Source: an uncultured Actinomycetes bacterium
GTDB lineage: Bacteria > Actinomycetota > Acidimicrobiia > Acidimicrobiales > RAAP-2
Assembly: GCA_903870905.1 (NCBI GenBank)
Contig: CAIQEU010000078.1
Span: 1 to 63,984 of the forward strand
Direction: 5' to 3'
Length of the DNA: 63,984 nt
Part shown: positions 53,882 through 57,644 of the stretch, piece after piece
How positions within the stretch are numbered: the stretch's first letter is position 1
Layout of the letters: each line of letters opens with the position of its first letter
Notes under the pieces: generated by a model
The model's database searches: none
What the model saw: the letters and a program-made list of their open reading frames with translations, nothing else
Told to the model about the DNA's origin: nothing
Program-made: the position numbers and the translations under genes

Positions 53882-55399
53882 TCAGTCGGTAGCCGGGGGC
53901 CCACCAGCGGGCTTCAAGACGGCCAGCACCTTGTGGTCGTCAATCCACCACGCCGCAATGGCGGCCATGAAGGCGAAGGCTGCGCACCAGAAGAACGGGG
54001 CCTTGTAGGCGTCGTAGAAGTGGTTCTGCACGGCGAGGGACTTCGGGCCAGAACCTGCGATGATCGGGCCGACCGTCGCCTTGGCGGTGGTCACCTGTGC
54101 GGCCAGGATCGAGATCAAGACCGCGATGCCGAGCGAACTCGCCACCTGGCGCTGGGTGGAGAAGAGCGCAGAGGCTCGACCGGTATCGGCGAAGGGGATC
54201 GTCGCGAACGCTGCTGCTTGGAGGGGAATGAACACGAACGCCCAGCACATGCCTCGAGCGAAGAGCACGATGCGGTAGTCCCAGAGGTTGGTGCTCGCAG
54301 ACGTCCACAACAAGCTCAACATGACGAGTCCGGCAATGGTGAGACCCACCATGAGGAGTCGCCGAGGACCGATCTTCGGGTAGAGGTGTCGGACGATCTG
54401 GCTCATCAGGATCACGCCGAGGGCCTGAGGGAAGGTCGTGAGGCCGGACTGCGCTGCCGAGAGCCCGCGCACGGTCTGGAGCATCAGCGGCATGAGGAGC
54501 ACGAGTCCAAAGAAGCTCGCGGTAGCGAAGATCGAGGTGATGTTGGTGGCTCGAAAGACCGACTCCTTGAAGAGTCGGAGTGCGAGCAGAGGATCGTGGC
54601 GACGTTCTTCAACGATCACCAGCACGATCCCGAGGACCGCACCAGCAATCAAGAATCCGAGGACTCTCGGGCTCGTCCAGCCAACGAGCTCTGCCTGGTT
54701 GAGCGCGTAGAGGATCGACCCGAGGGCGGCACCAGAGAGGATGAATCCAGCGGGGTCAAACTTCGACGTGGCGTGGTGCGCGTACTCCTTCAGGCGCCAG
54801 ACCCCAAAGGCAAAGGCCAAGATGCCGAAGGGGACGTTGACGTAGAAGATCCAGCGCCATCCGAGCCCATCGGTCAAGTAGCCACCGAGGACAGGGCCGA
54901 GGGCAGGGGCCATGAGGGTCGGCACCACCAGGATCGCCGATGCCTTGGCCCGTTCCGCTGGTGGGAATTCTCTGAACAACATCGCGGTGCCGACCGGGGT
55001 CATCATGCCGCCGCCGATGCCCTGAACGAAGCGGAACACCGAGAGTTCGGCGAGCGAGTGCGCTTGGCCACAGAGCACCGAGGCTGCGGTGAAGGTGAAC
55101 AGAGCGAAGAGGAAGATCCGCTTCGTTCCGAACCGATCACCGAGCCATCCCGACGCAGGGATCCAAATCGCCAACGAGAGGAGGTAGCCGAGGACAACCC
55201 ACGCGAGCTTCGTCGGACTCGTAGATCCGAATTCCTTCCCAATTGCTGGAAGTGCCGTGTTGATGATGGTCCCGTCCATGATGTCCATGAACATCGCCAC
55301 GACGAAGATGGTCGCAACCGCAGAACGGTCACTCATGTTGCCGAGGAAGCCGAAGGGGCCTCGGTAGTGACGCCGCTCTGCCGGGTAGGTCTCGCTCAT
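53882..55399 (-). CDS. MFS transporter, DHA2 family (14-helix drug:H+ antiporter type)
   Basis: A 505-residue membrane protein. Helix 1 carries FMDIMDGTIINTALPAIG (motif D1 of DHA2), loop 2-3 is GWLGDRFGTKRIFLFAL (motif A), and helix 5 has LVVPTLMAPALGPVLGGYL (motif C of antiporters). FFVNVPFG-like YVNVPFGILAF follows. Fourteen helices fit the length. It exports drugs or other amphiphiles using the proton gradient. ATG at 55399 lies 7 nt after TAGGAT; the longer frame start has no support. Confidence 0.92.
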   Translation of the reverse strand: MSETYPAERRHYRGPFGFLGNMSDRSAVATIFVVAMFMDIMDGTIINTALPAIGKEFGSTSPTKLAWVVLGYLLSLAIWIPASGWLGDRFGTKRIFLFALFTFTAASVLCGQAHSLAELSVFRFVQGIGGGMMTPVGTAMLFREFPPAERAKASAILVVPTLMAPALGPVLGGYLTDGLGWRWIFYVNVPFGILAFAFGVWRLKEYAHHATSKFDPAGFILSGAALGSILYALNQAELVGWTSPRVLGFLIAGAVLGIVLVIVEERRHDPLLALRLFKESVFRATNITSIFATASFFGLVLLMPLMLQTVRGLSAAQSGLTTFPQALGVILMSQIVRHLYPKIGPRRLLMVGLTIAGLVMLSLLWTSASTNLWDYRIVLFARGMCWAFVFIPLQAAAFATIPFADTGRASALFSTQRQVASSLGIAVLISILAAQVTTAKATVGPIIAGSGPKSLAVQNHFYDAYKAPFFWCAAFAFMAAIAAWWIDDHKVLAVLKPAGGPPATD

Positions 55400-55406
55400 A
55401 GGGGTC

Positions 55407-55412
55407 ATCCTA
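55407..55412 (-). promoter_or_regulatory. Leaderless-type -10 box TAGGAT
   Basis: TAGGAT on the minus strand, 7 nt before the ATG of the DHA2 transporter. The remaining gap to the macrodomain gene (to 55603) shows nothing recognisable. Confidence 0.55.
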
Positions 55413-55603
55413 CGGTCGAGCACGCAACGTCCCCCATACCCGCTCTGGAACAACTGGGAGAATCCTGCGTGCGAGCGGTCCTCACTCGAGGACCCTTGGC
55501 ATCGATGCTCCCTGGGGGACCGGGCGGTCGCGGCGACGTCCTCCATGGCCCTCGACGGCTCATGTCGCGCGACATCGTGGACAGACCGAGAACCTGCCGA
55601 GGG

Positions 55604-56128
55604 TCACTGCGCTGCGAGTGCTTCCTCCCACGCCAACTTGGTCTGCTCGTTGAACGCGACGAGGGTGACCGCGAGGTCTGGCCCATCAACCTCTCGCAGG
55701 GTGCGCACACTCACCGCAGCAGCTCGCTCCAAGGGGAACCCGAAGACGCCAGTCGAAATCGATGGGTAGGCGATCGACGTCAGCCCAGCGCTTCGGAGGC
55801 AGGAAATGGAGGCTCGGTAGGCGTCGGCGAGGAGTCGATCGGCGGCGTCGGATGATGCATCGGAGAATCTCGGACCTACAGCGTGGATGATGGCCTCAAC
55901 GCACTGCGAGGCGAGGTCGAATGCTGGCGTGATTCGGGCACTCCCCGTCGGGCAGGGAGCGACGCTGTGGCATGCCTGTTGCAGGTGCCGGAGTCCAGCG
56001 GCGCGGAAGATCGCTCCGCAGACGCCGCTTCCGGCGACCAGCCGTTCATTCGCTGCATTCACGATGGCTTGTGCGGCGTACGGGGTGCCGTGGAGTTCGG
56101 TGATGTCGCCGAGGAACACGTTGATCAT
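55604..56128 (-). CDS. Macrodomain protein (O-acetyl-ADP-ribose deacetylase type)
   Basis: A 174-residue macrodomain: INVFLGDIT at the start, AIVNAANERLVAGSGVCGAIFRAAG with the catalytic-site Asn and Gly loop, and YPSISTGVFGFPLERAA, the ADP-ribose phosphate loop. It resembles YmdB-like and MacroD-type deacetylases that hydrolyse O-acetyl-ADP-ribose or remove ADP-ribose from acidic residues. No ADP-ribosyltransferase or sirtuin is nearby. It lies 71 nt behind the GNAT-AAA+ gene on the same strand and may share its message. Confidence 0.9.
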   Translation of the reverse strand: MINVFLGDITELHGTPYAAQAIVNAANERLVAGSGVCGAIFRAAGLRHLQQACHSVAPCPTGSARITPAFDLASQCVEAIIHAVGPRFSDASSDAADRLLADAYRASISCLRSAGLTSIAYPSISTGVFGFPLERAAAVSVRTLREVDGPDLAVTLVAFNEQTKLAWEEALAAQ

Positions 56129-56199: not shown

Positions 56200-57471
56200 C
56201 TACCAACGGGCGTAGGTGGCGATTTCTTCGGCGAAGGCGATTCGGTCTTCGGCGCTAATCGATGGCTTCGTTCGTTCCAACGCCTGGGCGATGTCGTCGG
56301 GACTGATCGCCGTGTCACCCTCGGATGCCAGCGCTCGTTCAAAGGCGGCCTGGGCGGCCTGGCGCATGACGTAGTCCAAATCGGCCAAGGTGTAGCCCTC
56401 GGTCTGCTCCACAATGTGCGCGACGTCGACGTGCTCGGTATTGACGTGATCGAAAATGCGGTGCAGCGCTTCGGTCCGGGCCTGAATGTCCGGCGGGCCA
56501 ATGGGCAACAGGTAGTCGAAACGACCGGTTCGCACAAACGCTGGGTCGAGGCGACTGATGTTGTTGGTGGCGCAGATGAGAAGGCGCCCCGGTAGCGCTC
56601 GGAAGCCCGGAATTGCTTTGAGCAACTCATTGGTGATGGCCTGACCGGCGCTGTGCTCTTGGCGTCGACTGGCAATCTCGTCGACCTCGTCAATGAAGAC
56701 CACCGCGTGTTCCACCACTCGGAGCCGGTCGAAGGTCTCTCGAACCCCCGAGGCGATTTCGGTCGCGCTGGACCCCAACTGCGCGGGGAAGACTTCAATG
56801 AAGGGCCATCCCAGTCGCCCGGCGACACCGCGCGCGAGCGAGGTTTTTCCCGTTCCCGGGGGGCCGAAGAGAACGGCGGCCCCCGGCGGACGGAGCCCGT
56901 GTCGCTCCGCGATCGCGGGGTGGGCGAGCGGCGCAATCAGGGTCCGTTCGATGAGCTCCTTCGTGGTGGAGCCACCACCAAACTCCGACCAGGTCGTGGG
57001 CGGAACTACTCGTCCGCCGAGCTCGAGCACCACCTGGGCTTGGTTCGATCCATAGGATTCGCGGCGATTGAAGTACCGCACCGTGGCGGGGCCGGCGTAG
57101 CCCTGGTTGACGAAGGCCTCGTCACCAATCTCGCCCTCGTGGAGCAAGGCACTCAGTCGGGTCAGACCCGCTTCAGTCAGGGCTTGCTCGAGGGCCATGA
57201 GGAGCGCCGAACCAATTCCTTGATGGCGCCAGGCTTGGGCGATGGCGAGTCGACAGATCCACGCCCGATCACCCTCCACCACACTGCAGGCCGTTCCCAC
57301 AATCTGCCCATTGGCTTCGGCGACCAGAGCTGGGTCACCGCGAGAGACGCTGCCGATGACTTCGGCGACCGAGAACACGGGCTCACGCCCATGGACCCCG
57401 GCTTCATCCCACACCCGGATCGCGACATCAAAGTCAGCCGACTTCATCTCTCGAATGGACCACATCGCCAT
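56200..57471 (-). CDS. GNAT acetyltransferase fused to an AAA+ ATPase
   Basis: A 423-residue protein with two enzyme domains. Residues about 5-135 form a GNAT domain with the acetyl-CoA loop RLAIAQAWRHQGIGSALL (about 74-91). Residues about 165-423 form a classic AAA+ ATPase: Walker A GPPGTGKTS (203-211), Walker B VVFIDEVDEI (257-266), sensor 1 LLICATNN (297-304), arginine fingers in FVRTGRFD, and a lid AAQAAFERAL. The AAA part resembles FtsH/Cdc48-type modules. I know no characterised protein with this order. ATG at 57471 is 5 nt after TACATT; ATG at 57465 is possible. Its target may be unfolded while acetylated, but this is a guess. Confidence 0.85.
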   Translation of the reverse strand: MAMWSIREMKSADFDVAIRVWDEAGVHGREPVFSVAEVIGSVSRGDPALVAEANGQIVGTACSVVEGDRAWICRLAIAQAWRHQGIGSALLMALEQALTEAGLTRLSALLHEGEIGDEAFVNQGYAGPATVRYFNRRESYGSNQAQVVLELGGRVVPPTTWSEFGGGSTTKELIERTLIAPLAHPAIAERHGLRPPGAAVLFGPPGTGKTSLARGVAGRLGWPFIEVFPAQLGSSATEIASGVRETFDRLRVVEHAVVFIDEVDEIASRRQEHSAGQAITNELLKAIPGFRALPGRLLICATNNISRLDPAFVRTGRFDYLLPIGPPDIQARTEALHRIFDHVNTEHVDVAHIVEQTEGYTLADLDYVMRQAAQAAFERALASEGDTAISPDDIAQALERTKPSISAEDRIAFAEEIATYARW

Positions 57472-57557
57472 AGCGCAATGTACCCGACGGAACTCCATGA
57501 GAGGGGCAGATGGGCCTCGTCCGCCCATGAATCACCTTCACCGGCACCAAAAGCTCG

Positions 57558-57644
57558 TGGTGGGCGAGGGGGGACTTGAACCCCCACGTCCTTTCGGACA
57601 CTGGAACCTGAATCCAGCGCGTCTGCCTATTCCGCCACTCGCCC
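57558..57644 (-). tRNA. tRNA-Leu (anticodon CAG)
   Basis: A complete class II tRNA on the minus strand: acceptor GGGCGAG (57644-57638) pairs with CTCGCCC (57568-57562), followed by discriminator A and encoded CCA. Anticodon stem CTGGA/TCCAG encloses TTCAGGT with CAG at plus-strand 57608-57610. Long variable arm with TGTCCGAAAGGACG. Confidence 0.97.

Follow-up and report, generated by a model that had tools for sequence, protein, structure and literature searches.

A recurring protein family in Actinomycetota joins a YpeA-like GNAT domain to a single Cdc48-type AAA module in one reading frame

The N-terminal domain of an AAA ATPase usually binds substrates or adaptors, and in FtsH and the D2 ring of p97 the client is threaded by means of an aromatic pore loop, while a motif of the MDGF type serves signalling between subunits. 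Cdc48, p97 and VAT, as well as Cpa, contain two AAA modules, which in Cdc48, p97 and Cpa proper lie in tandem and are joined to an N-domain. We know of no characterised AAA+ remodeller in which an acyl-CoA-binding domain takes the place of the N-domain. Among GNAT proteins, many active enzymes have no strict general base or acid. The YpeA structures (2pdo, 4qus, 4qvt) are chains of about 140-160 residues that hold a GNAT domain alone, with no AAA part; their titles speak of a putative or predicted acyltransferase, and that of 4qvt of E. coli YpeA in complex with acetyl-CoA. A precedent for a GNAT domain that influences its partner although its own pocket is blocked comes from yeast N-acetylglutamate kinase: according to PMC3329491, its DUF619 domain has a GNAT fold with a blocked acetyl-CoA site and modulates the fused enzyme. 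There the GNAT domain is C-terminal and sits on an amino acid kinase, whereas in the family described here it sits on an AAA ATPase.

The stretch of DNA analysed here, hereafter the window, comprises 63,984 nucleotides of an uncultured Actinomycetes bacterium (contig CAIQEU010000078.1, assembly GCA_903870905.1) and encodes both kinds of domain in one protein. We found 63 such fusion proteins and aligned the 57 that are distinct and untruncated. The features to which we refer are as follows.

56200..57471, minus strand: GNAT-AAA fusion gene, 423 amino acids plus stop (translation, Pfam, 57-member alignment)
57064..57471, minus strand: GNAT (YpeA-like) domain, residues 1-136 (Pfam, profile against PDB, AF2 model with Foldseek)
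57208..57228, minus strand: acetyl-CoA loop, residues 82-88, RHQGIGS (pattern intact in 49/57 members, degenerate in 8/57)
56203..57024, minus strand: AAA module with lid and C-terminal helix, residues 150-423 (VIA-align structure search)
56845..56865, minus strand: Walker A, residues 203-209, GPPGTGK (identical in 57/57)
56752..56787, minus strand: pore loop 1 region, residues 229-240, no aromatic (F/W/Y absent in 56/57)
56686..56691, minus strand: Walker B acid pair D261-E262 (57/57)
56602..56613, minus strand: IPGF, residues 287-290, in place of the MDGF-type motif (I287 57/57, P288 55/57, F290 54/57)
56563..56565, minus strand: sensor 1, N303 (57/57)
56521..56532, minus strand: SRH arginines R314 and R317 (57/57 each)
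56203..56214, minus strand: C-terminal tetrapeptide YARW (family mostly [F/Y/L]-x-R-x)
55604..56128, minus strand: macrodomain gene, 174 amino acids, a neighbour outside the conserved unit (PF01661, E 6e-33)
57558..57644, minus strand: tRNA-Leu(cag), 86 nt upstream of the fusion gene, beside an FHA/PP2C cluster

The open reading frame (57471..56200, minus strand) has Pfam matches to both halves, and the single frame reported in a preliminary description of the window is confirmed, as are the Walker A, Walker B, sensor 1 and arginine-finger motifs named there, all of which are present and identical in 57/57 members. An upstream in-frame ATG at 57528 would give an alternative product of 442 amino acids. 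The alignment with the nearest homologue (L118) begins at residue 1 with an ATG at the same place; that start was chosen as the ATG nearest the aligned start and so lends no independent support to the 423-residue product.

The fusion is a recurring family and no chance arrangement, the same fused frame being found in 56 other distinct proteins that are 35-61% identical to the window protein. In a sample of Actinomycetota, 28 of 396 genomes (own included), from 25 of 237 genera, gave a match at E<=1e-45, and each of these matches comprises part or all of the GNAT half together with the AAA half in a single frame without stops. The domain-architecture check that had been proposed is thereby answered for all 28 matches, with no split gene among them; separate genes were what the preliminary description had looked to as evidence against a fusion. 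Among relatives of the window, the full fusion occurs in 7 of 61 genomes (own included), namely one of the same genus (G002, 61% identical) and five of the same family (41-44%) besides the window's own. Further carriers are Frankia, Protofrankia and MAGs labelled Acidimicrobiaceae, Acidimicrobium, Ilumatobacteraceae or acIV. Additionally, 22 plasmid records give matches that take in 80% or more of the protein, with hosts in Rhodococcus, Streptomyces, Embleya, Arthrobacter, Paenarthrobacter, Saccharopolyspora, Kitasatospora and Tsukamurella. Presence across genomes is patchy, and the range figures given here refer to Actinomycetota. The scan of genome contigs used short peptide patterns from one sequence, and Rhodococcus and Streptomyces are missing from its list, yet plasmids of both carry the family. 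RefSeq has given some members the name 'bifunctional GNAT family N-acetyltransferase/ATP-binding protein' (WP_007297117.1 and WP_331742139.1, which match over residues 1-422 at 43.6% and 41.4%), and we found no published description or functional test of a GNAT-AAA architecture in the open-access literature searched. The components are known, and the combination has a database name.

Several individual loci deserve mention. One (L010) holds two equally scoring fusion copies on a single contig, separated by about 3.4 kb, which points to a tandem duplication or an assembly repeat, and two (L110 and L111) encode identical fusion proteins in genomes of different families (G258 in f36, G364 in f46), pointing to recent transfer or a binning error. 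Several Frankia members (L018, L019, L020, L021, L022, L023) are longer, at 446-470 amino acids, and one Frankia matched segment ends near query residue 369; an insertion in the lid region is probable.

Upon examining the AAA half of the window protein, we find the Pfam AAA domain at residues 200-322 (E 4e-28) and AAA_lid_3, above its cut-off, at residues 348-382; the lid is also matched at E<=0.01 in 53/57 members. The 50 rows listed from a VIA-align structure search have Z 24.4-26.3 over about residues 142-423 and include Cdc48/VAT D2, Vps4, spastin and FIGL-1. Walker A and B, sensor 1, the SRH arginines and a small lid domain, the features of the classic AAA clade, are all present, and the AAA module claimed in the preliminary description is thus borne out as one of Cdc48/Vps4/spastin type. 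The likeness to Cdc48/p97/VAT D2 and to Cpa covers the AAA fold, the motifs and the C-terminal helix (about residues 150-422, Z 24-26), with the mycobacterial Cpa structure MSMEG_0858 (5e7p) at Z 24.8. The fusion differs from these proteins in having one AAA module, in carrying a GNAT domain where Cdc48 has its N-domain, in lacking the pore-1 aromatic in 56/57 members and in showing IPxF for the MDGF-type motif. We reject membership in Cdc48/p97/Cpa proper on the single AAA module, the N-terminal GNAT domain and a CDC48 model score of 143 bits against a cut-off of 803.

The pore loop and the IPxF site set the family apart from other AAA proteins of the same genomes. Pore loop 1 varies in length across the family, and the one member with an aromatic residue is L106 (PARLAAEYGLA). 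Among ten AAA domains from nine other AAA proteins of these genomes, read by eye from BLAST alignments, eight have the aromatic, the exceptions being an FtsH (L030, MIVG) and one of the two L043 domains; D-G stands at the MDGF-type site in 10/10 of them, as opposed to IPxF in the fusion family. The aromatic-hydrophobic pore loop 1 of the threading unfoldases FtsH, Mpa and p97 D2 is not found in 56/57 members of the fusion family. Of the earlier term 'unfoldase', the AAA module with intact motifs holds, whereas the sense of threading is weakened by the 56/57 members that lack the aromatic. Its absence is not proof against threading, since the L043 domain and the L030 FtsH lack it as well. The comparison also contains a separate family of 410-430 amino acids (L041 and L042), in which an N-terminal part that looks TPR-like by eye precedes one Cdc48/FtsH-like AAA domain with an ordinary pore loop.

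Next, we consider the GNAT half. Acetyltransf_1 is matched at residues 47-108 of the window protein (E 2e-12) and at E<=0.01 in 56/57 members, while the nearest NCBIfam GNAT model, PRK03624, reaches 53 bits against a cut-off of 124. When the family profile is compared with the PDB, the YpeA structures come first (2pdo at E 4e-21, 4qus, 4qvt), with a likeness that extends to about residue 136, and other profile kin include protein N-terminal and ribosomal-protein acetyltransferases. The full-length model has a pTM of 0.65 and leaves the relative placement of the two domains uncertain; because a structure search with it says little on the GNAT half, that half was modelled and searched alone (pLDDT 83, pTM 0.77). 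The YpeA structures match this model at Foldseek TMq 0.70-0.73, so that YpeA, which shares the GNAT fold and the acetyl-CoA loop, is the top match by both profile and structure; other neighbours include acetyltransferases for aminoglycosides, phosphinothricin and polyamines. Beyond about residue 108 neither the full nor the GNAT-only model shows an assigned strand, and pLDDT at residues 129-140 is below 50 in the former and about 75 in the latter. This qualifies the description of the GNAT domain as complete.

The GNAT fold comes with an acetyl-CoA loop of the form R/Q-x-x-G-x-G/A, which reads RHQGIG in the window protein, and the loop-less GNAT part that would have spoken against the preliminary description is not what this protein has. 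Among the 49 loop-intact members, R82 is kept in 47/49, G85 in 49/49 and G87 in 47/49, and no acidic residue of beta4 is conserved. A Tyr at residues 116-123, the position of the YpeA alpha4 Tyr, occurs in 0/57 members, that residue of YpeA aligning with one that is never Tyr in the fusion, whereas D13 is invariant (57/57). Mean pairwise identity in the 57-member alignment is 58% for the AAA core and 39% for the GNAT half. Since active GNATs without a strict base or acid are common, these absences do not exclude acetylation. The acetyl-CoA loop of the preliminary description is confirmed in the window protein, but 'acetyltransferase' as a settled activity is weakened by the missing beta4 acid, the missing Tyr at 116-123 and a clade without the loop.

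Of the eight members with a degenerate loop, seven form one clade with 100/100 support when the tree is inferred from nothing but the AAA half; the eighth (L108) stands apart on the tree with a milder change. All seven keep every ATPase motif. Acetyltransf_1 falls under its gathering score in four of them (L112, L110, L116, L117) and above it in three (L109, L115, L113). We compared rates of change over all within-group pairs with AAA-core identity of 70-97%, leaving out L108; all pairs at matched AAA identity were taken because 16 hand-picked pairs had given only a narrow separation (omega ratio about 2.9 and up in loop-less pairs versus up to 2.8). The median GNAT/AAA dN ratio is 3.9 in the loop-less clade (3.1-6.9, all 19 pairs) and 1.8 in loop-intact members (0.3-3.7, 177 pairs), with ranges that overlap slightly and pairs that share branches and are not independent. 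The GNAT/AAA omega ratio overlaps too, at 2.9-10.7 (19 loop-less pairs) versus 0.2-4.9 (165 pairs). The GNAT dN/dS stays below 1 in the 19 loop-less pairs (0.25-0.69); in loop-intact members it is 0.02-0.05 in five very close pairs, 0.23 for the window protein and L118, and 0.33 for L094 and L096, while in the wider set it reaches 0.76. Since most members keep the loop and one clade has lost it with its ATPase motifs intact, acetyl-CoA binding appears, from these sequences, to matter in most of the family and the ATPase to outlive its loss. The faster change of the GNAT half in the loop-less clade could reflect decay instead of a retained role.

The reading that we favour, tentatively and with a chance that we put at not quite even, is that the family is a single-ring Cdc48-like remodeller in which the GNAT fold serves as an acetyl-CoA-binding N-domain. 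The protein would belong to the classic AAA clade as a soluble ATPase forming a single ring, akin to Cdc48/VAT D2, Vps4 and spastin, with the YpeA-like GNAT fold at the site of the usual substrate- or adaptor-binding N-domain. It most likely assembles into a hexamer that would hydrolyse ATP with arginine fingers acting between subunits, and it would remodel a client protein without threading by an aromatic pore loop. Acetyl-CoA and the client are the most likely binding partners of the GNAT fold, and engagement of the client may be coupled to acyl-CoA supply or to the state of the client. In the one clade the pocket would have been lost and the fold retained as an N-domain only. The sequences themselves show the fusion, the intact ATPase motifs, the missing pore aromatic and an acetyl-CoA loop kept by most members and lost in one clade, whereas the hexamer, the ATPase activity, the binding of acetyl-CoA, the remodelling of a client and the coupling are inferred from them. 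A more specific form, in which the GNAT N-domains would act as sensors of acetyl-CoA, or as readers of client N-termini that are or can be acetylated, and so gate ATP-driven, non-threading remodelling, with the gate turned into a constitutive pseudo-GNAT adaptor in the derived lineage, we regard as speculative and, on balance, unlikely.

The strongest competing explanation, that of a true bifunctional enzyme whose ring remodels a protein and whose GNAT domains acetylate it at a lysine or the N-terminus as the output, we consider unlikely, though well worth weighing. The loop intact in 49/57 members, the low GNAT dN/dS of the five close loop-intact pairs and the protein N-terminal and ribosomal-protein acetyltransferases among the profile kin are consistent with it, but beta4 has no conserved acid, the alpha4 Tyr is absent, and one clade lost the loop and kept its ATPase motifs. 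Should the fused ATPase instead regulate a small-molecule acetyltransferase acting on a drug, polyamine or amino acid, as would suit the drug and polyamine enzymes among the structural neighbours and the scattered occurrence of the gene, also on plasmids, it would be left unexplained why the ATPase motifs are invariant and why a loop-less clade exists; the best matches, moreover, are the YpeA structures with their putative or predicted acyltransferase titles, and we judge this improbable.

A mobile-element or anti-phage function like that of IetA appears more improbable still. The AAA part is picked up by the IetA models of PADLOC (E 9e-25), and the patchy distribution, the carriage on plasmids and the different position of the gene in the congener G002 would fit. 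The likeness to the IetA/IteA anti-phage ATPase lies, however, in the AAA region, the matches stopping short of the GNAT half, and NCBIfam IteA_antiphage scores 82.4 bits against a cut-off of 510, so that membership in IetAS is unsupported. No phage record covers 80% of the query, and of at least nine loci on viral contigs those listed match the AAA part only. No recurring protease that could be an IetS-like partner was found in six annotated plasmid neighbourhoods; single ones do occur, L129 having a short P1 peptidase, L130 an M4 metallopeptidase and L131, at its edge, a Clp subunit.

We also give very little credence to the idea that the protein, like Mpa or Cpa, is an unfoldase associated with the proteasome. 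In its AAA half it is similar to MSMEG_0858/Cpa, and 20S-family matches occur in 28/34 fusion-bearing genomes, the count having been made in fusion-bearing genomes alone. There is none in the other 6/34, which include one given as 100% complete (G324), and on this ground an obligatory proteasome partner is rejected. The pore aromatic of a threading unfoldase is likewise missing in 56/57 members. According to PMC6017811, a C-terminal motif with a penultimate Tyr is a feature of proteasomal ATPases and Cpa has no classical HbYX motif. In the fusion family, 56/57 members have F, Y or L at residue 420 and one has H, and the penultimate residue is R (R422) in 57/57, which speaks against a proteasomal ATPase of the Mpa/ARC/PAN kind; for Cpa the absence of HbYX is weak evidence, since Cpa itself does without it.

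The macrodomain gene does lie 71 nt downstream on the same strand, as first described. The link between acyl and ADP-ribose chemistry drawn from that position, in which fusion and macrodomain form one operon, is largely refuted and hardly credible: apart from the arrangement in the window and a macrodomain in 5/7 fusion-bearing relatives (own included) versus 18/54 others (23/61 in all), the macrodomain is near the fusion in 0/62 other fusion loci (tblastn; flanks of at most about 6-7 kb, often ended by the contig; two of the 62 are repeats, L095 = L001 and L098 = L008) and the two genes are uncoupled within the genus, G001 having the macrodomain without the fusion and G002 the reverse (both drafts of about 91% completeness). 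The neighbour whose conservation was to be checked is thus not conserved, and we reject the partnership. In the four fusion-bearing relatives besides the window that have one, the macrodomain is on another contig or far from the fusion. We rechecked by tblastn because a simple gene caller had passed over genes hidden by long antisense frames; it recovered the fusion itself in only 50 loci, and neighbour clustering could miss partners in the same way. Beyond the macrodomain, an MFS transporter gene follows on the same strand (53882-55546, minus), making a possible local three-gene run.

Neither neighbour clustering nor the plasmid neighbourhoods revealed a shared operon partner, and for that reason the protein probably works by itself, or its client is encoded at another place in the genome. 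Genes for hydrogenase maturation (hypD, hypE, hypF) stand beside the fusion in 2/69 loci (L102 and L130) from different host groups, and a formate dehydrogenase-like pair was read from sequence near the fusion in L091. On the upstream side, the tRNA-Leu/FhaA locus is kept without the fusion in G001, G002 and G004 (1.6-3.3 kb beyond the tRNA examined), and the G002 fusion is on another contig than its tRNA-Leu/FhaA locus; this difference in place suggests that the fusion gene has moved within the genus.

Overall, if the GNAT domain gates the ring or acts together with it, protein remodelling in this family would be tied directly to the level of acetyl-CoA or to acetylation. In the loop-less clade nature has already run the experiment that distinguishes the GNAT domain as an enzyme from the GNAT domain as an adaptor, and the family as a whole, with a pore loop free of aromatics, offers a test of AAA action without threading.
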